From a virus, in IMG/VR virus record IMGVR_UViG_3300042474_000107, positions 1-39,715 of that record: a stretch of 39,715 nucleotides of DNA. The stretch is one strand, 5' to 3'. The translations under genes were made by a program, and so were the position numbers. This document shows positions 1 to 39,715 of this stretch, one piece after another. Under the pieces are notes generated by a model. That model made no database searches, had not been told where the DNA came from, and saw only the letters and a program-made list of their open reading frames with translations. How positions within the stretch are numbered: position 1 is the first letter of the stretch; every line of letters starts with the position of its first letter.

Positions 1-58
1 AATTACTGTTGAGTTAATAGGTGTGGCAACTGCAACATCTATTAACTCAACAGTAATT
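1..58. repeat. Fold-back inverted repeat at contig start
   Basis: Bases 1-20 are the exact reverse complement of bases 39-58, with 18 bases between. The true continuation of the genome at this point is visible at 39573-39589 and does not match bases 1-17. The repeat lies inside the tail-fibre coding region, so a short artefactual fold-back at the contig end (as in amplification chimeras) explains it better than a biological hairpin end. Confidence 0.8.
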
Positions 59-143
59 CCATCATCAAAGACTTTGGTTGCTACAGACTCAACAGATTAT
101 GTAGTACCAAGCCAGGGTGGTAACTCTGGTAAGTACCTAACTA
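18..143. repeat. Left copy of 126-base terminal overlap
   Basis: Identical to 39590-39715 at the other end of the window. The overlap lies within one continuous tail-fibre frame, as expected when a circular or circularly permuted genome is assembled past its start. It implies a unique length of about 39,572 bases. A true 126-base terminal repeat is possible but less likely, because it would cut a structural gene. Confidence 0.9.
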
Positions 144-298
144 CTAATGGAACTGTTTCATCTTGGGGAGCAGTAGATGCACTGCCATCACAGACTGGTA
201 ACTCAGGAAAATATTTAACCACCAACGGAACAGCCGCTGCGTGGGCATCAATCGTAACCGACCCAACACCGTCAGTATTTATGCTGATGGGTGCGTAA
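18..298 (+). CDS. Tail fibre protein, C-terminal part (continues from 38086)
   Basis: This is the 3' end of the fibre gene that begins at 38086. The frame at 23 corresponds exactly to 39595, which is 503 codons after the start, giving a whole protein of about 594 residues. The segment contains two copies of a [12 protein letters not shown] repeat spaced about 26 residues apart, a module common in phage fibres, and ends in TDPTPSVFMLMGA. A GTG at 23 could be mistaken for a start but is internal. An unbroken structural operon follows, with the next gene 17 bases downstream. Confidence 0.88.
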
Positions 299-315
299 CC
301 TAAGGAGAAATACAA

Positions 316-642
316 ATGGCTAAAAAAGTTCTTGGGCAATCAAACCCATCTGCAACAACACTAACAAGTCTATACACAGTACCTGCTTCCAAAGAAGCGG
401 TAGTTTCATCTATTTCAGTTGCTAACTTAACTGCAACTGCTGCAACATTTAGACTGGCAGTACGTCCAGCAGGTGCATCTATTGCTAACCAGCACTACAT
501 TGGATATGACATTACAGTCGGAGCATCTGACTCAACAATCATTACAGTAGGTCTAACACTTGCAACAACTGATGTGCTATCTGTCTATGCGTCTACTGCG
601 AACATTGCTTTCCAGGCGTTTGGAGACGAGGCTTCGGTCTAA
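316..642 (+). CDS. Small tail-associated structural protein
   Basis: A 108-residue protein starting MAKKVLGQSNPSATT, with a strong GGAGA box just upstream. It reads as one small beta-rich domain (alternating Thr/Val/Ala strands, an RPAGASIANQHYIGYD segment, no Cys). Proteins of this type sit directly after fibre genes in aquatic tailed phages and are thought to be tail or fibre accessory proteins; I recognise the type by its characteristic opening rather than by a named domain. Its stop overlaps the next start (TAATG at 640-644), so the glycine-rich gene downstream is probably translationally coupled. Confidence 0.75.
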   Translation: MAKKVLGQSNPSATTLTSLYTVPASKEAVVSSISVANLTATAATFRLAVRPAGASIANQHYIGYDITVGASDSTIITVGLTLATTDVLSVYASTANIAFQAFGDEASV

Positions 643-1514
643 TGTCTATCTCAAGTCTTAAGACTGGCGTAGTCTCTCCATCTAGTTTACTGGCTGGTAA
701 TGTAGCAAACATTCCAACTTCATCTGTTGATTACATTGTGTGCGCAGGTGCAGGTGGCGGTGGCGGTTCAGCCGCAAGTAGTTATGTCGGCGGCGGAGGC
801 GGTGGTGCAGGTGGATTGCGCCAATCAACAGCCCTGGCTGTAAGTGCGGGAACAACTTACACTGTTACAATAGGTGCAGGTGGTGCAGGTGGTACTGGTT
901 CTGCTCACGCAGCAGACGGCAGCAATTCAGTATTTTCATCAATTACATCAGACGGTGGCGGCGGTGGCGGTGGTTACACAGGCGGCTTAGCAGGTAACTC
1001 TGGCGGTTCTGGCGGTGGCGGAGCAGACAGTGGCGCAGGCGGTACAGGTATTAGCGGTCAAGGAAACGCTGGCGGTGTAGCCAATACAAACGCACCTTAT
1101 CGCGGTGGCGGTGGTGGTGGTTGGACTAACGTGGGCACATCTGGAGTAGATACAGGTAATGGCGGTAATGGCGTTGAATATAATTATTCAGGCGCAAGTG
1201 TTTATTATGCAGGGGGCGGCGGCGGCGGTTCGCAAGCCACTTCAGCAGGAACAGGTGGCAACGGCGGTGGTGGAGCAGGCGGTCTAAATAATGTTGGTAC
1301 TGCTGGCACAACAAATCGCGGTGGAGGCGGTGGTGGTGGTGCAACAAATACATCTCCAAATCGTGCGGGCGGAGCAGGTGGTTCAGGAATTGTAATCATT
1401 AGATATTCTGATGCTTATGCTCTTGCATCTTCAACTACAGGTTCTCCAACAGTTACTACTACAGGCGGATACCGCATTTATCAATTTACTGGTTCAGGCA
1501 CAATTACATTCTAA
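642..1514 (+). CDS. Glycine-rich fibre-tip/adhesin protein, paralogue 1
   Basis: 290 residues. A short N-terminal segment (SLLAGNVANIP, about 16-26) is shared with the next two genes and may anchor the protein. From about 35 to 250 the protein is dominated by poly-Gly runs such as GGGGGGAGG, broken by beta strands (TYTVTIGAGGAGG). It closes with GIVIIRYS and a GGYRIYQFTGSGTITF-type strand. Glycine-rich domains of this kind occur in phage fibre adhesins, where poly-Gly helices pack into a receptor-binding tip. Host-receptor binding is inferred from this and from the position after the fibre. It starts within the upstream stop codon and has no clear ribosome-binding site of its own. Confidence 0.8.
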   Translation: MSISSLKTGVVSPSSLLAGNVANIPTSSVDYIVCAGAGGGGGSAASSYVGGGGGGAGGLRQSTALAVSAGTTYTVTIGAGGAGGTGSAHAADGSNSVFSSITSDGGGGGGGYTGGLAGNSGGSGGGGADSGAGGTGISGQGNAGGVANTNAPYRGGGGGGWTNVGTSGVDTGNGGNGVEYNYSGASVYYAGGGGGGSQATSAGTGGNGGGGAGGLNNVGTAGTTNRGGGGGGGATNTSPNRAGGAGGSGIVIIRYSDAYALASSTTGSPTVTTTGGYRIYQFTGSGTITF

Positions 1515-1523
1515 GGAGTAACA

Positions 1524-2396
1524 ATGGCTATTAGAAGTCTTAAGACTGGAACATTTAGTCGCAGTCTCCTTGTTGGTAATACTGCATATATTCCATCTAT
1601 TTCTGATATTGATGTTTTAGTTGTTGCTGGAGGCGGTGGGGGAGGAAAATCTGCAAATGATTACAACTCTGATGGCGGCGGTGGAGCAGGCGGACTTTGC
1701 TATCAAACTGCACGTTCCGTTACAACTGGAGTTTCTTACACAGTTACAATAGGTGCTGGCGGTGCAATACAAACTGCTGGACAAAATTCTGTATTTAATA
1801 CAATTACCGCACTTGGTGGTGGAGCAGGACAAACTGCTGAAACTGCTGCTGGAACTATTAACGGTGGTTCAGGTGGTGGTGCGGCTTGGAGTCGCAATCC
1901 ATCTGGAACTGGAACACAAGGCAATTCTGGTGGAGCAACAGGATACGGAAATGCTGGCGGTTCGTGGGTTTCTGGAAACTTTGGCGGCGGTGGAGGAGGA
2001 GCGGGAGCCGTTGGTACTGACGGAAACAATTCAGCAGGCAATGGCGGAACAGGTCGCTCTTATGACATTTCAGGTTCATCTCTATTTTATGCAGGCGGAG
2101 GTGGCGGAGGTCGTTATTCTGGAACACCCGTTGCAACAGGTGGTTCAAGCGTTGGAGCAGATGGCGCAACTGGTAGTACATCAGCAACATCACCTACTGT
2201 AAATCGTGGCGGTGGTGGTGGTGGTTCATCTGGAACTGGAGCGGCAACGGCTTCGGCTGGGGCAAGTGGTGTAGTCATTTTACGCTATTCAAATATTTAT
2301 GCAGACGCTGCAGCAACAACTGGTTCACCAACATTTGCAAATACTGGTGGTTATAAGATTTATCAATTTACTGGAAGCGGGAGTATCACTTTCTAA
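1524..2396 (+). CDS. Glycine-rich fibre-tip/adhesin protein, paralogue 2
   Basis: 290 residues, clearly paralogous to its upstream neighbour: same length, N-terminal SLKTG and SLLVGN motifs, a DVLVVAGGGGGG entry to the poly-Gly core, GVVILRYS near 250 and a final GGYKIYQFTGSGSITF. Unlike paralogue 1 it has its own AAGGAG box before the ATG. The Gly-rich interior differs in loop sequence, consistent with variable receptor-facing loops on a conserved frame. Tandem duplication followed by divergence is the simplest origin. Confidence 0.8.
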   Translation: MAIRSLKTGTFSRSLLVGNTAYIPSISDIDVLVVAGGGGGGKSANDYNSDGGGGAGGLCYQTARSVTTGVSYTVTIGAGGAIQTAGQNSVFNTITALGGGAGQTAETAAGTINGGSGGGAAWSRNPSGTGTQGNSGGATGYGNAGGSWVSGNFGGGGGGAGAVGTDGNNSAGNGGTGRSYDISGSSLFYAGGGGGGRYSGTPVATGGSSVGADGATGSTSATSPTVNRGGGGGGSSGTGAATASAGASGVVILRYSNIYADAAATTGSPTFANTGGYKIYQFTGSGSITF

Positions 2397-3286
2397 TGGC
2401 TGTTATCAGTATTAAAAACAAAACTAAAAGTGGCTCACTGTTAGTTGGTAATGCATTTTATAACCCACCTAAAGCAACTGGTGGGACAATTACATCTGAT
2501 GCTACATATTGGTATCATACATTTATTTCATCAGGAACATTTACACCATTGGTCAGCCTTACTTGTGACATTTTTATTGTGGCAGGTGGCGGTGGTACTG
2601 GTAGCAATTTTAGTGCAGGCGCAGGAGCAGGTGGATTTTTAACTTTTACTTCCGAATCAGTTACAACGGCTAAAACAGTCACAGTAGGTGGCGGTGGTGC
2701 AGGTAATGCATCAGGCGCAGGAGTAAATGGCGTTAATACAACATTTGGGTCACTGACTACTGCCGTGGGTGGTGGTACTGGTATGTATGACGGTTCAAGT
2801 GAAACGGGTGGCGCAACAGGCGGCTCAGGCGGTGGTAAAACTAATTCGCAAACTACTGGATTTGCTGGGACATCTGGACAAGGCAATGCAGGCGGTGGTG
2901 CAAGCGGAACTACAAACGGCGGCACAGGCGGAGGTGGTGGTGCAGGTGCGGTTGGAACACAAGGAACATTTACAGTTTCAGGCAATGGCGGTGTAGGTTC
3001 ATCAACTGCAATAAGTGGTGGTGCAACAACTGGTGCTGGTCAATTATCTGGTGGAACTTATTATTTTGCAGGAGGTGGTGGTGGTGGTGCATTTAACGGA
3101 AATCAAACGGCAGCAGGTGCTGCTGGACTTGGCGGTGGTGGTGCGGGTGCTAGAGGTATAGGCGCCCCAGTAGATGCAAATCCAGGTACAGCAAATACTG
3201 GCGGCGGAGCAGGTGGAGCATCTGCTTATTCTGCTCCAGGCGCAAATGGTGGTTCAGGAATAGTTATAGTTAGATATGCGATATAA
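2396..3286 (+). CDS. Glycine-rich fibre-tip/adhesin protein, paralogue 3 (permuted)
   Basis: 296 residues, starting inside the stop codon of paralogue 2 (TAATG). It keeps the N-terminal SLLVGNAFYNPP motif, but the aromatic strand (YWYHTFISSGTFTP, about 42-55) precedes the poly-Gly core, whereas in the two upstream paralogues the equivalent strand closes the protein. It ends abruptly at GIVIVRYAI. Strand-first is the usual order in glycine-rich domains I know, so paralogues 1 and 2 look shifted by half a repeat. Role as a fibre tip or adhesin is inferred from composition and position. Confidence 0.78.
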   Translation: MAVISIKNKTKSGSLLVGNAFYNPPKATGGTITSDATYWYHTFISSGTFTPLVSLTCDIFIVAGGGGTGSNFSAGAGAGGFLTFTSESVTTAKTVTVGGGGAGNASGAGVNGVNTTFGSLTTAVGGGTGMYDGSSETGGATGGSGGGKTNSQTTGFAGTSGQGNAGGGASGTTNGGTGGGGGAGAVGTQGTFTVSGNGGVGSSTAISGGATTGAGQLSGGTYYFAGGGGGGAFNGNQTAAGAAGLGGGGAGARGIGAPVDANPGTANTGGGAGGASAYSAPGANGGSGIVIVRYAI

Positions 3287-3298
3287 GGGAGAAAAATA

Positions 3299-3670
3299 AT
3301 GGCACACTTTGCACAACTAGATGAGAACAATATAGTTACACAAGTAATTGTTGTGGCTAATGATGAACTACTTCTTGACGGAGTAGAGAACGAGACTAAA
3401 GGAATTGATTTCTGTAAGTCTCTACTAGGTGATGATACCCGTTGGGTTCAGACATCTTACAACTCTACAATCCGTAAGAATTATGCTGGCATTGGTTATA
3501 CCTATGACCCAGTTGCTGACCACTTCTTTGCACCTCAGCCATATCCTTCTTGGACATTAGATGCTGACGCTAAGTGGCAAGCACCAACTCCTATGCCAGT
3601 AGAAGAAGGAAAGTTTTTCACTTGGGATGAGCCAACTCTATCTTGGGTTGAAGTAGAACTACCAGCGTAA
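3299..3670 (+). CDS. Conserved phage structural-region protein
   Basis: 123 residues opening MAHFAQLDENNIVTQVIVV, an opening I recognise from a protein widespread beside tail-fibre genes in aquatic phages. The body is rich in aromatic and acidic residues (TRWVQTSYNSTIRKNYAGIGYTYD, about 48-71) and the end is Trp-rich (WTLDADAKW, FTWDEPTLSWVEVE). It resembles a short fibre or fibre-assembly domain; no catalytic motif is visible. It has a GGGAG box upstream, and its stop overlaps the next small gene (TAATG). The exact role is unknown. Confidence 0.72.
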   Translation: MAHFAQLDENNIVTQVIVVANDELLLDGVENETKGIDFCKSLLGDDTRWVQTSYNSTIRKNYAGIGYTYDPVADHFFAPQPYPSWTLDADAKWQAPTPMPVEEGKFFTWDEPTLSWVEVELPA

Positions 3671-3756
3671 TGTGTTACCAGTGTGGTAGTTGCTCTCATC
3701 AGCCTGCTCGCACAATAGATGATGCTATAGATGAAACAGATTTACTACCGTATTAA
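3670..3756 (+). CDS. Cys-rich micro-protein
   Basis: A 28-residue reading frame, MCYQCGSC followed by an acidic tail ending LLPY. It is coupled to the upstream gene by a one-base overlap and fills the gap to the next gene's ribosome-binding site exactly. Cys-x2-Cys-x2-Cys suggests metal binding or disulfides. Support comes from context and packing only; the function is unknown. Confidence 0.55.
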   Translation: MCYQCGSCSHQPARTIDDAIDETDLLPY

Positions 3757-3765
3757 GGAGCAATA

Positions 3766-5721
3766 GTGGCAACGAGAGATATAACCGAAGGTAGAGGCTC
3801 TGCAACTGCCAGCATTGGTCGTGCTATTGCTGTTGACTTAGGTATTGTTTCATCTAGTTCTACTTGGCAGAACACTAATGAGTCATATGATGTAGCAGTA
3901 GGTGGACTTCCATTTTTCTACGCTATCAGTGATGCTCGTCCATACATCCGCCAGACTGCACCATTTCGTAAGGAACAGTCAGACATTGGCGCAGAACCAG
4001 GTGAGCAGTCGCTCACTGGTTTCTGGCTAAGAAGTCAGTCTTCTTTCCACAATGGCACAGGCATTAAGTTCTATGACCCATCTGCAGGTGAGACAGTTAA
4101 CTATCGTTTTGCTGACTCAGACAATGTAGACATATGGACTAAGGGACAGGTAACTCTCCTCAAAGAGACAGCCAATATGTCTGGCGTTACTACTGGTGTA
4201 TACAAGGTGCTATCTATTGTTGATGGCTCCACCAATAAGATTCTTGGTTGGACACCAGCAAATACAACTATCAATAATTATACTGCTAGTGGTACTGCTG
4301 TTACTTACTCTAGTGTTGTAACTGCTGGATTAGATACTGCCACACTTGCAATTGCAACTGATGGCGCACACTTGTTTGTTGCTGACAATGACCATATTTA
4401 TGCAGGTGAAATTACATTACCTGCATCTGGATACACCCAGTATTACAATACTGGTAGTGAACGAGTAGTAATGTCTTGGGTAAAGCAACGTCTTGTTGCT
4501 GGTATTGGTGCATCTATTTATGAACTAACTGCTGCTAAAGGCTCAAGTCATACGTTACCTACAGCAACATACACACATCCTAATTCTGACTGGACTTGGT
4601 CATCTATTTCTGAAGGCGGTTCTGCTATTTATGCCGCTGGTTACCTTGGCGGTAACTCTGCCATCTACAAGTTTGTTCTATCTACTGCTGGTGTTATGCC
4701 TACCCTGACATCAGGGATTGTAGCAGCGCAACTACCTATTGGGGAGATAGTTTATAAGATTGAGTCATACCTTGGTTACTTGATGATTGGTACCAATAAG
4801 GGTATGCGTGTGGCTACTATCTCAGATACAACTGGTGACTTGTCCTATGGTCCCTTGATATTTGAAGATACTAATGGTGTCTATGACTTTGCATTCCGTG
4901 ATAAGTATGTCTGGGCAACTGGTACAATTGGGACATCTCCTGGACTCTATCGCATTGACTTAGGCACAGAGATTGAATCTCTACGCTTTGCCTATGCTAA
5001 GGATACCTACCTCAGTACCGCTACTGGATACGCAACTAGCGTAGATTTTATAGGTAACACTAACCAACTAGCCTTTACTACATCAGGTAGTAACGGCATA
5101 GCCGTTCAGTCAACTACAGTCTTGGCAACATCTGGCTCTATAAATACAGGTAAGATTAGATTCTCTACCCTAGAGCCTAAAAACTACAAGCGTCTTATTG
5201 CACGTGGCACATTTACATCTGGCGAGTTTACATTGTCATCTCTTGCTACAGAAGCAAGTGGTTCTGAAACACAGTACGACCACATTACTTATAACTCAGA
5301 AGTAGGTGCAGTAGAAGTAACTACATCTCAACCTGAAGTAGCACAAGAGTTTCTTGCCTATAAGTTTACACTTAATCGTGATGCAACTGATACAACTACT
5401 GGTCCAACCTTTAAGGGATACCAGACAAAGGCAACCATTGCTACTCCACGCAATAGAGTTATTCGTTTTCCTGTCTACTGTTTTGATATTGAAACAGATA
5501 GGTTTAATACTGTAGTTGGGTTTGAAGGCAGAGCCTTTGAGCGTATCCAATTGCTAGAAGAGATTGAAAAGACAGGCGATGTTCTGACTTGGCAAGACTT
5601 GACAACAGGAGAATCACGACAGGCAGTAATCGAACAAGTTACATTCACCCGTATGACACCGCCCGATAAACGCTTTGATGGTTTTGGTGGCATCATAGAG
5701 ATAACCGTAAGGACCGTATAA
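3766..5721 (+). CDS. Large tail protein (propeller-like; nozzle or hub candidate)
   Basis: 651 residues from a GTG start preceded by AAGGAG. The middle (about 150-430) shows repeated beta-strand blocks such as LFVADNDHIYAGEI, VWATGTIGTSPGLYRID and YLGYLMIGTNKGMRVA, the look of a beta-propeller. The C-terminus (about 565-651) contains RFPVYCFDIETDRFNTVVGFEGRAF-like sequence and a strand-rich end as in tail hub or distal-tail domains. In a virion without a recognisable tail tube, a large propeller-bearing protein after the fibre would suit a tail nozzle or receptor-facing hub. The structural role is well supported by position; the specific role is inference. Confidence 0.7.
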   Translation: MATRDITEGRGSATASIGRAIAVDLGIVSSSSTWQNTNESYDVAVGGLPFFYAISDARPYIRQTAPFRKEQSDIGAEPGEQSLTGFWLRSQSSFHNGTGIKFYDPSAGETVNYRFADSDNVDIWTKGQVTLLKETANMSGVTTGVYKVLSIVDGSTNKILGWTPANTTINNYTASGTAVTYSSVVTAGLDTATLAIATDGAHLFVADNDHIYAGEITLPASGYTQYYNTGSERVVMSWVKQRLVAGIGASIYELTAAKGSSHTLPTATYTHPNSDWTWSSISEGGSAIYAAGYLGGNSAIYKFVLSTAGVMPTLTSGIVAAQLPIGEIVYKIESYLGYLMIGTNKGMRVATISDTTGDLSYGPLIFEDTNGVYDFAFRDKYVWATGTIGTSPGLYRIDLGTEIESLRFAYAKDTYLSTATGYATSVDFIGNTNQLAFTTSGSNGIAVQSTTVLATSGSINTGKIRFSTLEPKNYKRLIARGTFTSGEFTLSSLATEASGSETQYDHITYNSEVGAVEVTTSQPEVAQEFLAYKFTLNRDATDTTTGPTFKGYQTKATIATPRNRVIRFPVYCFDIETDRFNTVVGFEGRAFERIQLLEEIEKTGDVLTWQDLTTGESRQAVIEQVTFTRMTPPDKRFDGFGGIIEITVRTV

Positions 5722-5915
5722 TGGAGTTCAAAGACTATCTAACCGTGGCAGTAGCCGTCATAGCAATCTTTTCAGCATTTGCTGGTGGCATAAGGTGGAT
5801 GGTCAAGCATTATCTTAACGAACTCAAACCCAATGGTGGTAGTTCAATGAAGGATTCTATGGCTCGTATGGAAAAACGTATTGATGATTTGTATGCATTG
5901 ATTGCAGGTAAGTGA
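5721..5915 (+). CDS. Small membrane protein with coiled coil (lysis cassette)
   Basis: 64 residues: one hydrophobic helix at about 6-27 (YLTVAVAVIAIFSAFAGGI) followed by a charged amphipathic helix (MARMEKRIDDLYALIAG). The shape resembles small holin or holin-associated proteins of actinophages. It starts in the stop codon of the tail gene and is followed, via a mini-gene, by the endolysin. A lysis role is inferred from this context. Confidence 0.68.
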   Translation: MEFKDYLTVAVAVIAIFSAFAGGIRWMVKHYLNELKPNGGSSMKDSMARMEKRIDDLYALIAGK

Positions 5916-5998
5916 TGGGATTCATTGTACCTGAACCAATGTGGGACCCAGTAACTCCTGACATAGACCCTAGTGATTGGGAAGATGACGATGAGTAA
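5915..5998 (+). CDS. Acidic 27-residue mini-protein
   Basis: MGFIVPEPMWDPVTPDID then an acidic end. It starts inside the upstream stop (TGATG) and overlaps the endolysin start by 8 bases. The tight overlaps at both ends support translation, possibly serving mainly to couple the membrane protein and endolysin. No function is recognised. Confidence 0.5.
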   Translation: MGFIVPEPMWDPVTPDIDPSDWEDDDE

Positions 5999-6482
5999 AG
6001 CAACACCTGCTGCTGTAGCAGTACTAAGACAAGCAACAGCCTTGCGCCCTAAGCGCAAGAAGGCCAGCGATGGGTTACTGCCATCAGCAGCGCATATGAA
6101 ACAAAGCCCAACATCTGACCACAACACAGGGTTGGCTGTTGATTTAACTCACGACCCAGAAAATGGTATTGATTGTGTTGACATTTTTGAAAAACTTAAA
6201 GAAGATAAACGAGTTAAGTACCTTATTTTTCAAGGCAAGATTTGGTCTAAAGAAAAAAGCAAGTTGGGAAACAGACGGTACACTGGGAGTAATGCTCATA
6301 ATAAGCATCTACATATTTCTATTGAGTCCACTATGGGTACCGATACTTCTCCATGGTTTTGGTGGATGAACACACCTAAAACTATTAATCAAATCGTTGC
6401 AGCCTTGAGTTCTATGCCTGCAAAGAAAGCATATAAGACCGAAGTTTGCACCTGCTGTAAGTTACACGGGGCAAAGTCCTAA
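5991..6482 (+). CDS. Endolysin, M15-type peptidase (DD/LD-carboxypeptidase-like)
   Basis: 163 residues from the ATG at 5991 (a GTG at 5973 and an ATG at 5985 are in-frame alternatives; GGAAGA suits 5991). It carries the zinc-peptidase signature SDHNTGLAVD at 42-51, giving likely ligands His44 and Asp51, and HLHI at 106-109 giving His108. This is the M15/VanY-like fold used by phage endolysins to cut peptidoglycan stem peptides. No signal peptide is seen, so release would need the flanking holin-like proteins. The C-terminus has a CTCCKLHG Cys cluster of unknown role. Confidence 0.82.
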   Translation: MSKATPAAVAVLRQATALRPKRKKASDGLLPSAAHMKQSPTSDHNTGLAVDLTHDPENGIDCVDIFEKLKEDKRVKYLIFQGKIWSKEKSKLGNRRYTGSNAHNKHLHISIESTMGTDTSPWFWWMNTPKTINQIVAALSSMPAKKAYKTEVCTCCKLHGAKS

Positions 6483-6934: not shown

Positions 6935-7195
6935 CTATTGGTATGTTAGATACATTGGTATTGGTATGATATTAAGTTGTCGCCTTATCTTGTTGCGCTC
7001 ATGTTCAGTTGTATCGCCCCAGTATCCCAGAACATTGTAGTTGAGTGCATAGTCAAGGCATTCTTTTTTAACTACACATGCTCCACAAATACGTCTGAGT
7101 GCTTTGCGTTCTGGATAAGTACTCTGTCCTTCTGGTACAAAAAACAATTCATTATCTGTTGATTCGCAGTTAGCAGTTTTACTAGGTTGAAACAT
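6935..7195 (-). CDS. whiB: WhiB-family Fe-S transcription regulator
   Basis: 86 residues with the four cluster cysteines: Cys10, then Cys37-x2-Cys40-x5-Cys46, followed by GYWGDTT (57-63), the WhiB turn motif, and a basic C-terminus (RNKIRRQ). WhiB proteins bind a 4Fe-4S cluster and act with the primary sigma factor in Actinobacteria; phage copies can alter host expression or mimic host WhiB. The family is restricted to Actinobacteria and their phages, so this gene is the main clue to the host. It lies at the end of the leftward operon, next to an FmdB-like gene and close to a sigma-like gene. Confidence 0.93.
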   Translation of the reverse strand: MFQPSKTANCESTDNELFFVPEGQSTYPERKALRRICGACVVKKECLDYALNYNVLGYWGDTTEHERNKIRRQLNIIPIPMYLTYQ

Positions 7196-23668: not shown

Positions 23669-24078
23669 TGGCAGAAGTATCAGGACCAGGAGAACAGTCT
23701 AAGCGCACAGACTTAGGCGTACTTAAACAAAGTACAAAGCCAATACAAGCCACTCAACCAATGCAATCATACACTGGTGGCGAATACGGCAATAATAAAT
23801 CTATGGCAATGCAACAGGCTGCTGCTCCATTAGCAGGCAGTCCAACACCAGCAATGCCAACAATGCCAGAAATGCCACCAATAGTGGGATTAGATGCGCC
23901 AACACAGTTTCCAGATGAACCTCTTTCTTATGGTGCAAACTATGGTGAAGGTCCAGGACTAGACACTTCAGGTATACGTGGTATGGGTCAACCTACTATA
24001 AGAGAAGCGGTTTATCGTGCAATGCAGTTTGACCCTAGTGGAGAATTAGAAGCGATTTATAACAGATTGAACCAATAA
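23668..24078 (+). CDS. Low-complexity head-region protein
   Basis: 136 residues, starting in a one-base overlap (TAATG). The opening GPGEQSKRTDLG and a Pro/Met-rich middle (PTPAMPTMPEMPPIVGLDAP) resemble small proteins seen next to portal genes in actinophages. The C-terminal REAVYRAMQFDPSGELEAIYNRLNQ is helical. Probably a minor virion or assembly component; function unknown. Confidence 0.65.
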   Translation: MAEVSGPGEQSKRTDLGVLKQSTKPIQATQPMQSYTGGEYGNNKSMAMQQAAAPLAGSPTPAMPTMPEMPPIVGLDAPTQFPDEPLSYGANYGEGPGLDTSGIRGMGQPTIREAVYRAMQFDPSGELEAIYNRLNQ

Positions 24079-27000
24079 TGTCAGGTCTTTATCCAAATAA
24101 ATTACCTGCTACATCTAAAAACTTTAATCCAAAATATGTTGAATATAACCCAGGTCTTTATGCTGCCATAAATGCGGGACAACCATCACCAGAAGATGCT
24201 TTTCAAATGGCTGAGATTCAGTATCTTCAGGCAAAACATGCTGAACTAAACAACATGAAAAACATAAATGCTGCTAGAAAACAATTTTCAGAACTTGCAC
24301 CTGCTATAAAAGAAAATATTGTAAAGTTAAATCCTGACTATGAGTATCAGGCTGCTCCTACCTATTTAGCCCGTGTTGGAGAAAACCTATCAAGTACTGT
24401 AAAAAATATTTATAAATCACCATTTCAAACAGCAGGAAAAGCAATAACTGGTCTTTATAATACAATATTAAAAACTCCTTATAATATAGCAACTGGTACT
24501 GCAGAAGCACTTGTTAAAGATGTAAAAGCAACAGATTTAAGTACCGCTATGGGTCAAGTTAATTTTCCTGCTGTTGCATCTTATTTAACAACTGCAAAAT
24601 CTTGGCAAACTGCATGGACTGGTAAAGATAACTGGCGTGAAAATGATGTTAGAGTTCTTGATGAAATGCACGGCAAAGGTTTATCTGCATTAATTCGTGG
24701 ACAAATAGATGGTAAAAAACCAGGAGATATTTACCGTGAATATGGTGGATATAACTATGAAATGCAAAGTGCAATTGCTGCACAGAGTGATTATAATGCG
24801 TACCTATTTGGTGTTGCTACTAATCAAACAGAAAAGTATCCATTAACTATTGCAGGCAAAGCATACGAAACTGCACTCTCTGATATAAGTTCTAGACAAA
24901 AAGAATTTGGTAATGACTTAACAAATTTTATGAACAAGAATTTCCCGCCGTCAAAGGCTGGCCGTATTGGTCAATTAATATTTAGTTCATTTCGTAATCC
25001 ATTATGGGCAACATACGAAGATAGAGTAGCAGCGGGAGTTGAATCAAAAAAAGTTAACCAGTGGAGAATTGCTAATCCAAATCCATTCTCAAAGGGTAAA
25101 CAAACATCTGACCCATCTGGATTTTTTCAATTTGAATATGAATTAGTTGCAGACCCACTAACGTATCTTACTGGTGGTGGGTCTAAAGGATTAGGTCTTT
25201 CTGAAAAACTAGTAAAAAAGTTTAATGATGCTGGTGCTGCTGGAGTTTCAAATGAAATCCGTGTTGCAGACCTTTTTAAGAATCAAAGATTTTCTAGTAT
25301 TCATTCTCGTTTAGTTGATGAATTAAATGTTTTACGTTTGGCCAGAACTCAAGAAGATAAGAGTGCTGCTTATCTATCACGTGAAAGAATTAAACAAAAC
25401 TTTCCACACTACGATAACGATATTACAATTAAACATCTTCTTGATACTAAAGTACTTGATAAAAATGGCGTAGAAGTTAATGTAACAGATTTGGAAACTT
25501 TAAAAAGTTTCTTTATTCGTGGTGAAATGATTGATTACATTACACATGGATACAGAAACAATATAGGTTACTTTAATGACAACCATATTATGCTTGAAAG
25601 GTCTACTCGATTAATAACCGATAGATTTAGGGCAAGATTTGAACGCATAGTTAATGATGCAGATGTATCTAAGCCTAAAGAAACACTGGCAAGTGGTGGA
25701 CTTACTAAAAAGATGCAAATTGTTACAGATGCATTTGCTGATGCTGGTAAATTTCCAACACAACTTGCTGATGACCCTGAATTAATAGCAACAGTCAAAT
25801 CTTTAACAAGACACGGTACTGTTATTCAAAAAACATACAATAGAGCAATGGCTGCTCATCCAGCAAATGTTGTATTACATACATCTAATGAGTTTGTTGA
25901 TAGTTCTATGCCTGCTTTTAGGGATTTTGCAAGAGTTCTTACTGGGGATAAGGCAATGGCTAATTTAATGGCTGAAGTTTATTTAGACCTACCGCCAGAT
26001 GATAGATTTAATATGCTTTACAGTACACTTAAATATTATCTTGATAAAATTGGTGCTCCAGAAGAATATCAACGTCAGGTATTAGAATCTACTTTTGGTG
26101 ATGTTGCTGGTTTTGGTCCAGTACCAGAGTTTAAAGTACCAACACATCTTATTGACGATACAGAATTGCGAGTTGCACCTGGTACAAGCCAGCCACTTCA
26201 CTTAACTCGTGGTATTAGCATGCCAAACTTTAATAAAATACATACAGATTTGTATGATTTAACTGGTTGGGATAATTTTGGATTAAAGTTTGTTAAATCT
26301 CTTACTTATTCTACTTTTGCTAACATTACAAATGGTTTGTGGAGTCTATTGCTTTTGTTCCCAAAGATTGCTGTAAAGGGAGCAACGGACGAATCTGTTC
26401 TTAATGGATTAACAAACTCTTATAAAGCAATTTTTAGTATACTTACTCGTCAAGGTGCAGCAGCATCTAATGTACGCGCTGCCGTTACTGGTAAAGAAGA
26501 AACAATAGGCTTAATTAAAGCCAAGATATTACGTGATAACTCACCACATAAGTATATTTCACCTTCTATGCGTGCAACAATGCAAGAAGATGTTTTAGTA
26601 AAAGAAGCCACAATGCTTCCTAGTGGAAGATTAGTACAGGCTGATGAATGGGTTGGTGCCGATGAATTTCATGGTGCCCCATACTTGGACCGTTTAGTTT
26701 CTATGGGTATTGCTAAGTATGGTGGAAAGTTATCTACTCGCAGAAAAGAAATATTAGCAAGTGAATTAGCAAATAACTCTCACTCTATGCATGCTCATTC
26801 ATTGTCTTCTGTTGGTAGAACATTAGGTAATCATGAAGTAGATGGCAGTATTATTGCCGAGGTGTATGGCAGAAATGAATTAGTAAAAGCATTAGATGAA
26901 AAGCATATAGCCGAAAAGGGTATACGTGCAAAGTATCTTGCAAAACTAAAAGGAACAGATGTCTTAAGACAAACTGGAGACTTTCAAATTCGAGATATGG

Positions 27001-29735
27001 ATAAACTTTCTCAGTCTGATAAGACTGTAGTTCATTATACAAACTTTTGGCAGTACTTTGCAAGAAACGTATGGACACATGAGCCTACTAAGGTATCTGT
27101 AGACTATGGTGATTTGTTTATTAAGCACAATGCAATCCGAACTAAAGAAGATGGCAAAGCATTTGTTGATGATGTAATGAATGAGATTGGTTTCATCCGT
27201 AATTCTATGGGCGAATGGAAGCCACGTATGCAGCAACTTGGCGTAGAGCCAAATGGCACACCTATTATGACTGATAGAATCTCAAGAGAAACTATTGAAG
27301 CGTTCTTAACAGATTTTAGACAGACATCTCAAATGCGTCTTGCTGGTCTTTCACCAGACCAAATTGCGGAAGCATTAATCCGTAACTCACGTGACGAACT
27401 GTACACAATCTTTCATGGCTCAGCAGATGATTTTAATGAAAACCTGCTTAATATGATTAATTTTAAAATGAATGAAGGATTAGAAAAATTAACCAACAAG
27501 GGACCATATGCTGATGCTATTGGTGAAAGCAGTTCACGTGCTAAATGGGCAATTAATCAAGCAAAGCCTTCTTATCATATTTCAAAAATTGCCTTTAATG
27601 AATTTGAAGATGTAACAGTTGGCTATGGATTAAAGGCTAAACTTGTTAAGACTGATTTAAACTTTAAGATATTTGCACCTAAATTAACTGTATCCGCCAT
27701 GTATGAAAAAATGGCTAGAGTTCCTTGGGAAATTATGGATAGGCAAATAAATGACCTATACCGTAGTGATGCTTATATGGTTAAAGTATTTGAAAATAGA
27801 GAACGCATGGATGCTGCTGAAAAGGCTTATGCTCAGCAATTAATTGATAATGGTACAACTCCAGAGGCTGCTGCATTGCAGGCTGATATGGTCTTTGCTG
27901 GTCAAGCAAGTATTAATTCTGTTTATGGTGTAATGAAATATGCAGATAACACTGAAGTGCGTTCACAACTAGCATGGTCATTGCGTGGAGTAGGTCGCTT
28001 TAATAGAGCCAATGAGGACTTTTGGAGACGTATGATACGTCTTGGTTCTACAAAAACACCACAGGCTGTATGGCGATTAGGTCACTATCAATTAGCAATG
28101 GATGGTGCAGGTTTTATTCACACTGATGATGATGGTAATAAATATGTTATTGTTCCAAATGATGGTGTAACTTTCCATACTCTTAACAATGTTTTTACTG
28201 CATTATTAAATCCATTAAACGTTGCAAGGGCTGCTAGAGATGGTGAACTAGATTCAATCTTTAAGCAACCAGAATATAATCAAAGAACACTTAAGATTTC
28301 TATGCTTAACCCATCATATACTGAGGGTTCTGGTGTGGTTTCTTTGCACGGAACAACTATGTCTATATCTGTTGCTGGTCTAAAAAAACTATTTAAATTT
28401 GGTGGTCAACTTATTGGACAAGAGGCTACTGGTTTAAAAATTGCAGAAGAACTTGACAATCTTATCCTTGGACCAATGAGCGATAATCAAACACTTGCTC
28501 GTATGTTGCCATCCGCAATACACAACATATGGGCTGGTATGGACCCAGAACATAGAACTGGTGCTTGGGCAACTGCTATTCAGCAGGCTGCAATGTTTAT
28601 GCAATACAACGATAACACCAAGATAACTCCTGAAGAACTTCAGGACCCAGCAAAAGCACAAAAATACTATGACAGATTAGGCATTGGTGCTTACAATCTT
28701 CTTGTTGTTAAGGGTGGATTTAATACTCTTTCAGCCGTACCTATGGGTGATACAAGTGATGGTGTAAATCCATTACTTCGTGGTGCTGGTATTATTACAT
28801 TTACAGAAGAGTTCAATGACATACTACGAGCAGTAATGGATACAAATGCTGAGAATGGTTATCCATTGTCAGAGCCTATTGCTGTAGCAGTGGCTATGTT
28901 TGTTGGTAGTTATCCAGATAGACTTGTGTTTACTGTAGCAAAGGATAGCCTAGGGGCTAAACTATATGTTAATGCAGTTAAAGAAACAAAGAACTGGGTC
29001 TTTGATAATAAAAAGATGATTGAACGCTATAAGAGCGCAGCATTTGTATTTGCTCCAAAGCCAGAGAATGCAGAGTATGACCCTGCTACGGTTAAGTTTT
29101 TACAGGCTAGTGGAATTATCGAACCAAAGAACAATCCATTTGTTACTGATAAAAATGCTGATACTCCATTGATGCGTTACATCAAAGAACTAGCAGCGGT
29201 CAAAGACCGTGCAAAGTTTTATGACTTAGATAGAGAGATGAACAATCTTCTTACTGACCCTGAAAACCCAAGACGTAATGACCCTGCTTATGCCTCAGAA
29301 CTTAGAGGGCAAGTAGCCTATCAAAAGACTGTATTAAAAGAAGGCAATCCAATGCTGGCTTATACTCTTGGAACAAGTGAAGTAGTAACACGTGAACTAT
29401 TGCAAAAGAACTTTAAGGATATAAAGTCTTTAATTACTGACGCAGACTTTACATCTACTACGGGTAAGCCAGAAAAGGGAAAGATTAATCCTAGTACCCA
29501 AAAGCAAATTAAACAGATGCTTAATATAGCAAGCACAATGTTGCTTGTATTTGAAGATAACAATATCCGTACACAGTCAACTGGTATAGATACACTTAAT
29601 GTTGTCTACAAAGATGGTATTGAAAACTTAATGAAACTATCTCTTGCTAACCCATACGCAAGTATGGCATATCAAAACATTATCAAGCCACTATTGGATG
29701 ATGTTTATAGAATACCAACGAAGGGCTTAAAGTAA
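24078..29735 (+). CDS. Giant virion protein (possible ejection/internal protein)
   Basis: 1885 residues, by far the longest gene. No polymerase, protease or transglycosylase signature was found on reading it through. It is mostly helical with many Asn/Lys/Tyr residues and one hydrophobic stretch (NGLWSLLLLFPKIAVKG, about 752-768). Its place between portal and scaffold, followed by two more large helical proteins, parallels internal or ejection proteins of podoviruses such as T7 gp16, although those lie elsewhere. N4-type virion RNA polymerase was considered but no RNA polymerase motifs (DxxGR, catalytic HD) appear. By eye it is more AT-rich than the capsid genes. Its role is inferred from size and position. 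Confidence 0.6.
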   Translation: MSGLYPNKLPATSKNFNPKYVEYNPGLYAAINAGQPSPEDAFQMAEIQYLQAKHAELNNMKNINAARKQFSELAPAIKENIVKLNPDYEYQAAPTYLARVGENLSSTVKNIYKSPFQTAGKAITGLYNTILKTPYNIATGTAEALVKDVKATDLSTAMGQVNFPAVASYLTTAKSWQTAWTGKDNWRENDVRVLDEMHGKGLSALIRGQIDGKKPGDIYREYGGYNYEMQSAIAAQSDYNAYLFGVATNQTEKYPLTIAGKAYETALSDISSRQKEFGNDLTNFMNKNFPPSKAGRIGQLIFSSFRNPLWATYEDRVAAGVESKKVNQWRIANPNPFSKGKQTSDPSGFFQFEYELVADPLTYLTGGGSKGLGLSEKLVKKFNDAGAAGVSNEIRVADLFKNQRFSSIHSRLVDELNVLRLARTQEDKSAAYLSRERIKQNFPHYDNDITIKHLLDTKVLDKNGVEVNVTDLETLKSFFIRGEMIDYITHGYRNNIGYFNDNHIMLERSTRLITDRFRARFERIVNDADVSKPKETLASGGLTKKMQIVTDAFADAGKFPTQLADDPELIATVKSLTRHGTVIQKTYNRAMAAHPANVVLHTSNEFVDSSMPAFRDFARVLTGDKAMANLMAEVYLDLPPDDRFNMLYSTLKYYLDKIGAPEEYQRQVLESTFGDVAGFGPVPEFKVPTHLIDDTELRVAPGTSQPLHLTRGISMPNFNKIHTDLYDLTGWDNFGLKFVKSLTYSTFANITNGLWSLLLLFPKIAVKGATDESVLNGLTNSYKAIFSILTRQGAAASNVRAAVTGKEETIGLIKAKILRDNSPHKYISPSMRATMQEDVLVKEATMLPSGRLVQADEWVGADEFHGAPYLDRLVSMGIAKYGGKLSTRRKEILASELANNSHSMHAHSLSSVGRTLGNHEVDGSIIAEVYGRNELVKALDEKHIAEKGIRAKYLAKLKGTDVLRQTGDFQIRDMDKLSQSDKTVVHYTNFWQYFARNVWTHEPTKVSVDYGDLFIKHNAIRTKEDGKAFVDDVMNEIGFIRNSMGEWKPRMQQLGVEPNGTPIMTDRISRETIEAFLTDFRQTSQMRLAGLSPDQIAEALIRNSRDELYTIFHGSADDFNENLLNMINFKMNEGLEKLTNKGPYADAIGESSSRAKWAINQAKPSYHISKIAFNEFEDVTVGYGLKAKLVKTDLNFKIFAPKLTVSAMYEKMARVPWEIMDRQINDLYRSDAYMVKVFENRERMDAAEKAYAQQLIDNGTTPEAAALQADMVFAGQASINSVYGVMKYADNTEVRSQLAWSLRGVGRFNRANEDFWRRMIRLGSTKTPQAVWRLGHYQLAMDGAGFIHTDDDGNKYVIVPNDGVTFHTLNNVFTALLNPLNVARAARDGELDSIFKQPEYNQRTLKISMLNPSYTEGSGVVSLHGTTMSISVAGLKKLFKFGGQLIGQEATGLKIAEELDNLILGPMSDNQTLARMLPSAIHNIWAGMDPEHRTGAWATAIQQAAMFMQYNDNTKITPEELQDPAKAQKYYDRLGIGAYNLLVVKGGFNTLSAVPMGDTSDGVNPLLRGAGIITFTEEFNDILRAVMDTNAENGYPLSEPIAVAVAMFVGSYPDRLVFTVAKDSLGAKLYVNAVKETKNWVFDNKKMIERYKSAAFVFAPKPENAEYDPATVKFLQASGIIEPKNNPFVTDKNADTPLMRYIKELAAVKDRAKFYDLDREMNNLLTDPENPRRNDPAYASELRGQVAYQKTVLKEGNPMLAYTLGTSEVVTRELLQKNFKDIKSLITDADFTSTTGKPEKGKINPSTQKQIKQMLNIASTMLLVFEDNNIRTQSTGIDTLNVVYKDGIENLMKLSLANPYASMAYQNIIKPLLDDVYRIPTKGLK

Positions 29736-38085: not shown

Positions 38086-39715
38086 ATGACAACTAGAAAA
38101 TACTCGTCCAGAGCACAGCAAACTACACTAACTAGTCCTATCACCTCTGGTGATGCAACTATGACCGTAGGTTCTGGTGCTAACCTTATGGGTGGTAAGA
38201 CACCCGCAGTAGGTGAAACCTATACCGTTGTCATTGACCCTGATACGGCTCTTGAAGAAATTGTAGATGTTAGTAACTACTCATCAGGTAATACTCTTAC
38301 CATTGCTAGAGGCATTGATGGTTCTACTGGTGTAGCCCACTCTGCTGGTGCAGTTATCAGACATATGGTTGTTGGTCGCGACCTAACTGAATCTAATACA
38401 CACATTGAAGCAACCACTGGACACGGTGCAACAGGTGCTGTAGTTGGTACAACTAACACACAGACTTTGACTAACAAAACTTTAACTGCTCCAACCTTGA
38501 CGACTCCAGCCTTAGGTACACCTGCATCTGGTGTTCTAACTAATGCAACTGGTCTGCCACTTACAACTGGTGTAACTGGAACTCTTCCAGTAGCAAACGG
38601 TGGTACTGGTGTAACAACATCAACTGGTTCAGGTGCTAACGTACTTGGAACTAGCCCAACTATTGCTAGTCCAACTATTACTGGCACAGGAACTATTGCT
38701 GGTACTTTTACAGGCAATGTAACTGGTGACGTAACTGGTTCTTCTGGTTCAACTACTGGTAATGCAGCAACTGCAACAGCACTTGCTACTGCTCGTACAT
38801 TCCAATTAACTGGAGATGTAGAAGCAAGCGGAGTTACCTTTGATGGCACTGGCAATGTAAGCCTAACTACAGTTATTGGTACTGGCGCTATTGTTAATGC
38901 TGATGTAAATGCATCTGCTCAAGTTGCTTATAGCAAATTAAACCTAACTAACTCAGTAGTTAATGCAGACATCAATGCATCTGCTGCTATTGACTGGACT
39001 AAACTTGGTATATCTTCTACAGTAGATTCAACTGAAATTAGTTATGTTAATGGTGTTACATCTGCAATACAAACTCAGTTAGATGCTAAATTAGCAACTG
39101 CTACAGCATCAACTACATACGCTCCGCTGGCAAGCCCAGCGTTGACTGGTGTACCTACCGCTCCAACAGCAGCAGCCAACACTAATACAACTCAGGTAGC
39201 AACTACTGCTTATGTACAGACAGAAATTACAGACCTTATTGCTGCAGCACCTGGTGCTCTTGATACTCTTAACGAGTTAGCAACTGCCCTTGGTAATGAT
39301 GCAGCGTTCTCGACTACTGTTACTAACAGCCTAGCGACTAAGTTACCTCTGGCTGGTGGCACTATGTCTGGTGCTATTGCAATGGGTACTAACAAGATTA
39401 CAGGTGCAGGCGACCCTACATCGGCTCAAGATGTTGCAACTAAGAACTATGTTGATACAGCATCAATTGCCCCTAGCAACTTAACTGGTCCAATTACTTC
39501 CGTAGGTCCAGCAACTAGCGTTGCTGCTCAGACTGGTACTGGTTCAACATTTGTAATGAACACTAGTCCAACGCTAGTCACTCCAGTTCTAGGTGTGGCA
39601 ACTGCAACATCTATTAACTCAACAGTAATTCCATCATCAAAGACTTTGGTTGCTACAGACTCAACAGATTATGTAGTACCAAGCCAGGGTGGTAACTCTG
39701 GTAAGTACCTAACTA
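38086..39715 (+). CDS. Tail fibre protein, N-terminal and central part (continues at 18)
   Basis: Open to the end of the window and continuing at 18-298 for about 594 residues in all. The N-terminal domain (about 1-110) includes TARGIDG-like and [18 protein letters not shown] sequence and should attach to the tail. The shaft has classical fibre repeats: [48 protein letters not shown], and [21 protein letters not shown] with ATKNYVD. It is probably trimeric. The downstream glycine-rich genes may supply separate tip adhesins. Confidence 0.9.
39590..39715. repeat. Right copy of 126-base terminal overlap
   Basis: Identical to 18-143; see the left copy. It shows that the tail-fibre frame continues across the break and that the sequence is circular or circularly permuted. 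Confidence 0.9.

Follow-up and report, generated by a model that had tools for sequence, protein, structure and literature searches.

Ordered leaders, probably exchangeable heads and a likely circular permutation of a glycine-rich adhesin domain behind the tail fibre gene of a lake phage

Behind the tail fibre gene of the virus contig IMGVR_UViG_3300042474_000107, three tandem genes (genes 1 to 3) code for glycine-rich proteins that carry a common aromatic segment at opposite ends. The contig, whose entire 39,715 nucleotides (nt) are referred to as the window, stems from a lake phage that is kin to the Planktophila phages E7 and F5. Which part of such genes is kept, which part is exchanged, and how can one domain exist in two orders? 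The original prediction had proposed cassette recombination through repetitive DNA rich in GGTGGCGGT. The reading that was judged quite probable here combines slot-specific leaders with exchangeable receptor-binding heads on the fibre of an actinobacterial phage, the head of gene 3 being circularly permuted.

The three open reading frames (ORFs) have the features of paralogues, as had been predicted. Each protein begins with a short leader that contains SLLAGN at residues 15–20 (gene 1) or SLLVGN at residues 14–19 (genes 2 and 3), and the glycine content is 32.8%, 27.6% and 30.1%, respectively. The domain PF21722 (Gly_rich_2, curated cut-off 24.3 bits) was matched with 90.7, 87.5 and 52.4 bits; the matches span residues 23–255, 21–255 and 46–294 and leave the leader and an aromatic three-strand segment, designated S, mostly outside. 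The cores also match phrog_2295 (E ≤ 4e-42), and a search of NCBIfam yielded no match. The predicted positions of S were confirmed as well: S is C-terminal in gene 1 (GGYRIYQFTGSGTITF) and gene 2 (GGYKIYQFTGSGSITF) and N-terminal in gene 3 (ATYWYHTFISSGTF). Proteins with S before the core are called N-type and those with S behind the core C-type. Adhesin-like proteins are thus indicated behind the tail fibre gene by PF21722, by the fold matches described below and by the PHROG match of the fibre. The stop-start sequence TAATG does occur at two of the three junctions, at 640–644 between a gene for a protein of 108 amino acids (aa) and gene 1, and at 2394–2398 between genes 2 and 3; the junction of genes 1 and 2 lacks it and reads TAAGGAGTAACAATG. 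As a sign of gene fusion TAATG does not hold, being ordinary close gene packing.

Structures of the gene 1 and gene 3 proteins were modelled as monomers by means of AlphaFold2, with a mean predicted local distance difference test (pLDDT) score of 92.7 and 87.3, respectively. Neither model contains a helix of four or more residues. Both consist of one strand series in rotated order: in gene 1, the core strands (28–34 to 250–256) precede the three strands of S, and in gene 3 the three strands of S precede the core strands (55–62 to 289–295). The same solved folds were matched by both models, in agreement with the predicted relationship. Cyanophage Pam3 gp24 and the tail tip of mycobacteriophage Bxb1 were found with Z values of 13.5–14.5. 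Residues 36–296 of gene 3 align to residues 76–276 of Pam3 gp24 (Z 14.4), and residues 24–261 of gene 1 align to residues 94–280 (Z 14.3). In the latter alignment the first strands of Pam3 and the last strands of gene 1 are left without a partner, which is what a circular permutation predicts. For Bxb1 (PDB 9D93), residues 39–295 of gene 3 align to 39–267 (Z 13.7) and residues 24–256 of gene 1 to 58–267 (Z 14.5). The alignment with the extracellular TG domain of ALK/LTK also places S in front, with Z values of up to 8.8 for gene 3 and of 5.5 for gene 1, the latter lying in the common range of the tool. The N-type order is present in every solved relative found; gene 3 conforms to it and genes 1 and 2 do not. 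Searches of solved structures with single protein sequences gave no match, and a profile search found Pam3 (E 2e-5). The best reading is that gene 3 and genes 1 and 2 represent a natural circular permutation of one TNF-like/polyglycine adhesin domain. In the literature searched, which excluded most subscription papers, neither a circular permutation in such glycine-rich/TNF-like domains nor the name Gly_rich_2 was found.

If S and core form one domain, each core should possess one S. For a census of the family, 80 loci were gathered through the 651-aa gene downstream of the slots (best 80 of 253) and 69 further loci through Gly-rich proteins (64 plus 5). S segments were counted in 122 of 147 ORFs, the remainder being open-ended, incomplete or identical, with profiles from which the core edge had been removed, since profiles reaching into the core over-count. 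In 98 closed, non-redundant single-core proteins the tail after the core has at least 33 residues in 82 cases and 0–6 residues in 16 cases, with none between. At 6 bits, the counts of S and of cores agree in 94 of the 98 single-core and in 21 of the 24 multi-core ORFs; judged by shuffled flanks, 3.8 false hits are to be expected. In an independent set of 83 proteins outside profile building (23 duplicates or known ones excluded), S was found at 6 bits only behind the core in 64, only before it in 18, on both sides in none and on neither side in one. One S per core therefore holds in 82 of 83 proteins; in the lone exception, 80 residues follow the core match, and 60 of them were scanned. The placement of S at either end is a family-wide alternative, and the shifted order of gene 3 is not explained by local shuffling as had been proposed.

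It is conceivable that the S segments at the two ends are not one strand set but two kinds of add-on hairpin, which exclude each other by chance. The similarity of the two kinds of S is indeed modest: an hhalign comparison of their profiles gave a probability of 50.5 and an E value of 1.6e-4, and at 6 bits the C profile recognises no more than 11 of the 36 N segments, compared to 11 of 720 shuffled ones. However, the N profile detects 58 of 83 C segments compared to 51 of 1660 shuffled ones at the same threshold, the exclusivity extends to all but one protein of the independent set, and the strand series of the two models match. Independent hairpins are therefore considered rather unlikely, and a permuted domain is preferred. 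Fused multi-core proteins show linkers such as core-S-S-core, so that S belongs to a core and is not a mere alternation. A tree of 94 cores, which is poorly resolved, requires 12 changes of the N/C label (shuffled mean 18.3), at least two of them on well-supported branches. Genes in which two or three Gly-rich domains are fused were observed at loci L010 (206–2809), L038 (5081–7420) and L019 (3105–4883); such genes are a possible route to circular permutation.

The leaders behave differently from the bodies that follow them. A scan with the 108-aa protein (best 80 of 130), supplemented by the window and isolate E7, gave 82 regions, 76 of which contain leader genes. After one read-through ORF had been dropped, 176 leader genes remained, and 170 were assigned to slots 1 to 3 by leader sequence and position. 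The leader comprises about 20 residues and ends with SLLxGN; each of the three slots, which follow the 108-aa gene in order, has a leader of its own. In 63 regions the downstream sequence extends over at least 3.4 kb; slots 1, 2 and 3 are present in 36 of these, and their order is 1-2-3 in all 36. The order of slots is colinear in these 36 regions, and the bodies in the slots vary. The leaders are conserved as protein, with ratios of nonsynonymous to synonymous differences (pN/pS) of 0.23, 0.26 and 0.34 at pS values of 0.54–0.67. Residues 1–20 have block means of pLDDT of 51–66, the lowest part of the gene 1 model and among the lowest in gene 3, as might be expected for a peptide that needs a partner. 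In one contig of L190/L092, the slot-2 gene is frameshifted and reads through into slot 3; similar copies in L191 and L192 are intact. An assembly error and on/off variation would fit this case equally well.

The bodies were classified in a census of 147 distinct closed bodies in slots 1 to 3. Simple motifs at the ends of the bodies served to define the classes other than Gly, for which the names ESIA-LYG and kelch-FGGG (kelch-like) were introduced here. Slot 1 contains 30 Gly-C, 10 Gly-N, 11 ESIA-LYG and 4 kelch-like bodies and 1 unresolved Gly body. The corresponding numbers are 27, 7, 10 and 3 for slot 2, with 1 other body, and 14, 3, 21 and 3 for slot 3, with 2 others. ESIA-LYG bodies have about 165–215 aa, start with (Y/F)ESIA and end with LYG; they occur in E7 (L001, 8277–9873) and in the slot-3 genes of many loci, and the family is among the commonest heads here. 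No match was obtained for ESIA-LYG in Pfam (one member searched) and in PHROG (two members), or for kelch-FGGG bodies in Pfam (two members). A lectin-like body in slot 2 of L055 gave a sub-threshold match to Laminin_G_3 (18.7 versus 27.6 bits).

Bodies of at least three kinds alternate behind near-identical leaders. For example, the slot-3 leader of E7 is nearly the same as that of gene 3 in the window but is followed by an ESIA-LYG body. The leader DNA is at least 95% identical in 252 pairs from the same slot; 56 of these have bodies of different fold classes, and 66 combine Gly-N with Gly-C. Different folds also stand behind 100% identical leader DNA (10 of 56 pairs). For 135 pairs within a slot whose leader DNA agrees to at least 90% and whose bodies differ in fold, identity drops from 0.91–0.96 in the leader to 0.50–0.55 in the next 60 nt and 0.38–0.43 in the following 60 nt, the baseline of shuffled DNA being 0.44. 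Furthermore, one body has changed its slot: the slot-2 body of L213 and the slot-3 body of L216 are 96% identical in nt, their leaders 65%, and the jump occurs at the SLLVGN codons. Ordinary divergence of three ancient paralogues, with functionally conserved leaders, fast-evolving bodies and no exchange, would agree with the median body identity of 0.36 within and 0.26 between slots and with a slight clustering of slots on the body tree. The closest relatives of the bodies in the window often come from other slots: the best matches of gene 3 (0.56) and gene 2 (0.51) are from slot 2 of L170 and slot 3 of L205, respectively, whereas the two best matches of gene 1 (0.57) are both from slot 1. Point divergence is hard to credit because different folds stand behind identical leaders and because of the 96% slot-hop, and exchange-free divergence was judged very unlikely.

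The predicted cassette recombination was thus supported with respect to the strong cassette variation among related phages, and not supported with respect to the site. Shuffling of gene parts within a phage through GGTGGCGGT-rich DNA could draw on the enrichment of GGTGGCGGT, which occurs 6 times instead of the expected 0.12, always within genes 1 and 3. However, gene 2 has no copy, and the longest exact words common to genes 1 to 3 have only 15–17 nt. A blastn comparison detected a single partial segment of high identity (at least 88% over at least 120 nt) inside the slot bodies, 129 nt long and located at a 3' end. The slot-hop breaks at the leader end, and the N/C order is a property of the family. 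Repeat-driven shuffling is regarded as highly unlikely. A dedicated diversity mechanism, either a retroelement or a site-specific recombinase, would be in line with hypervariable heads beside constant flanks. In the window record, which may be incomplete, no match was found to a reverse transcriptase (PF00078), the hallmark of diversity-generating retroelements, or to the recombinase families PF00239 (resolvase) and PF00589 (tyrosine recombinase) as in invertases and shufflons, and positions 300–3700 contain only 5 pairs of inverted repeats, all short and imperfect. Such a mechanism appears extremely unlikely. The sequence comparisons rather support cassette exchange with the leader end as the probable point of exchange.

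It is plausible to assume that the three genes encode receptor-binding proteins on the tail fibre, each consisting of leader and body. Each leader would dock its own protein at its own site, most likely the fibre tip or the 108-aa protein. The body would be an exchangeable head, in the window one of three TNF-like/polyglycine domains that would present variable loops to the host surface and so may affect host range; gene 3 would contain this domain in circularly permuted form, its aromatic strands (S) preceding the core and not following it. Whole bodies would be swapped from phage to phage and from slot to slot, the junction lying at the leader end. Phages E7 (L001) and F5 (L002) were isolated on one Planktophila strain. 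Their slots 1 to 3 are 98.9%, 99.7% and 100% identical, the last value covering 138 of 191 residues as the F5 record begins inside the gene; the fibre is 95.9% and a 240-aa gene following the slots 94.2% identical, and the part of F5 that can be aligned to E7 amounts to only 63.6% (PMC10202952). Equal heads and an equal host would fit receptor binding. A more far-reaching version, given slightly less than an even chance, is an addressable three-position display: three distinct tags would place three different heads on each virion, any fold of the pool could be put in any position by crossover at SLLxGN, and the permuted adhesin forms would have been interconverted at least twice, perhaps via fused multi-domain genes.

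Several observations weigh against the combination of slot-specific leaders, exchangeable heads and permutation. The only clear slot-hop concerns kelch-like and not Gly-rich bodies, and 27 of the 63 regions with sufficient downstream sequence do not have a simple 1-2-3 set. On the body tree, whose resolution is poor with 42 open branches among 90, bodies are slightly clustered by slot: there are 37 changes compared to 43.0 after shuffling, and 2 of 200 shuffles were as low; exchange is therefore frequent but not wholly free of the slot. The count of S depends on the threshold: at 4 bits it agrees with the number of cores in 91 of 98 single-core ORFs but only in 13 of the 24 multi-core ones, and 13.2 false hits are to be expected. 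The C-type profile misses the S of gene 3 itself (−1.8 bits), and an equivalent place of N- and C-terminal S in the fold is presumed. Host binding is suggested by the position beside the fibre gene and by the slots shared between E7 and F5, which are two phages from a single reservoir.

Among known systems, Pam3 gp24 (PDB 7YPX, 7YFW; PMC9608196) is the best or near-best solved match of both models. Like them it has a TNF-like sandwich with inserted glycine-rich loops, located at the fibre tip, and its variable distal tip has been proposed as the receptor site (PMC9608196). It has the N-type order only and forms a trimer through a long N-terminal helical bundle; the slot proteins, in contrast, have a leader of about 20 aa, are three distinct proteins encoded next to each other and include C-type permutants. 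The brush/polyglycine-rich domains of Bxb1 (PDB 9D93; PMC13243192, PMC13252515) show the same fold at the tail tip of an actinobacteriophage, aligned with S in front, unlike genes 1 and 2. The cores of genes 1 to 3 are members of PF21722/phrog_2295, with the Pfam match confined to the core. ALK/LTK share the composite fold of both models but are eukaryotic receptors with N-type order, and a shared function is not implied. In Salmonella phage S16 gp38 (PDB 6F45; via PMC9608196), polyglycine stretches likewise bear variable tips, whereas the middle domain is a beta-helix and the attachment to gp37 is helical (PMC9608196). 6F45 is not among the matches listed in the fold searches, an absence that does not exclude likeness. 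In receptor-binding proteins of Klebsiella phages (PMC12692247), the N-terminal part, which serves attachment, is conserved, and the distal part can be exchanged. A conserved N-terminal part before divergent bodies was also found here, but with an anchor of only about 20 residues, three distinct anchors in fixed order, and polyglycine and other folds. Another study of such a Klebsiella phage protein reportedly describes a conserved N-terminal anchor and an exchangeable distal part as well.

Freshwaters all over the world harbour 'Ca. Nanopelagicales' in abundance, and the microdiversity of these bacteria is assumed to be driven by extensive phage predation (PMC10202952). If the proposal is true, ordered docking leaders and interchangeable heads would offer their phages a way to keep pace with the hosts, and the heads present could be identified in metagenomes and linked to hosts. 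The rule of one S per core would provide a case of natural circular permutation within a large family of phage adhesins and could guide annotation and modelling; the viral structure library names most such proteins merely 'glycine-rich domain-containing'.

Table 1. Features of the slot locus and its surroundings (positions in the window).
Feature	Position	Strand	Evidence
Tail fibre gene	38086..39714, continuing at 18-298	+	ORF, contig-end overlap, PHROG tail-fibre families (best E 9e-27)
C-terminal end of tail fibre gene	2..298	+	ends ...FMLMGA, like relatives
108-aa gene preceding slots, conserved (labelled 'adapter' here)	316..642	+	95% identical to F5
Gene 1 (slot 1), leader and C-type Gly-rich adhesin	642..1514	+	ORF 290 aa, PF21722
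Slot-1 leader MSISSLKTGVVSPSSLLAGN	642..701	+	SLLAGN codons 684-701
Gene 1 Gly_rich_2 core (residues 30-255)	729..1406	+	PF21722
Gene 1 C-terminal S segment	1449..1511	+	modelled strands 270-274, 277-282, 286-289
Gene 2 (slot 2), leader and C-type Gly-rich adhesin	1524..2396	+	ORF 290 aa, PF21722
Slot-2 leader MAIRSLKTGTFSRSLLVGN	1524..1580	+	SLLVGN codons 1563-1580
Gene 2 Gly_rich_2 core (residues 30-255)	1611..2288	+	PF21722
Gene 2 C-terminal S segment	2325..2393	+	by alignment with gene 1
Gene 3 (slot 3), leader and N-type (permuted) Gly-rich adhesin	2396..3286	+	ORF 296 aa, PF21722
Slot-3 leader MAVISIKNKTKSGSLLVGN	2396..2452	+	SLLVGN codons 2435-2452
Gene 3 N-terminal S segment	2480..2548	+	modelled strands 31-34, 38-43, 47-51
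Gene 3 Gly_rich_2 core (residues 58-294)	2567..3277	+	PF21722
123-aa gene following slots, conserved	3299..3670	+	phrog_7759 (function unknown); 92% identical to F5
651-aa gene, conserved, downstream anchor	3766..5721	+	phrog_11667
WhiB-like gene	6989-7180	-	PF02467, E 4e-15

The surroundings of the slots are conserved (Table 1). The 108-aa protein gave weak matches to tail-fibre families of PHROG. Identity to F5 is 63% for TerL and 86% for the portal and only 47% for the gene 1 protein. The host is probably a member of 'Ca. Nanopelagicales' (freshwater actinobacteria; 'Ca. Planktophila' is probable), because the record is related to the Planktophila phages E7 and F5 and carries a WhiB gene, which has been named as an actinophage marker for the E7/F5 family (PMC10202952). 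Window positions 18–143 are identical to the last 126 nt (39590–39715). The genome is therefore circular or terminally redundant, and because of this overlap the fibre gene continues from the contig end to position 298. An Rfam search of positions 1–6000 gave no match. The first approximately 18 nt of the window are the reverse complement of about 43–60, which resembles an assembly hairpin. In the stretch of lowest GC content (0.35–0.38), a single gene at 24078–29735 codes for 1885 aa, possibly a large virion-internal protein.

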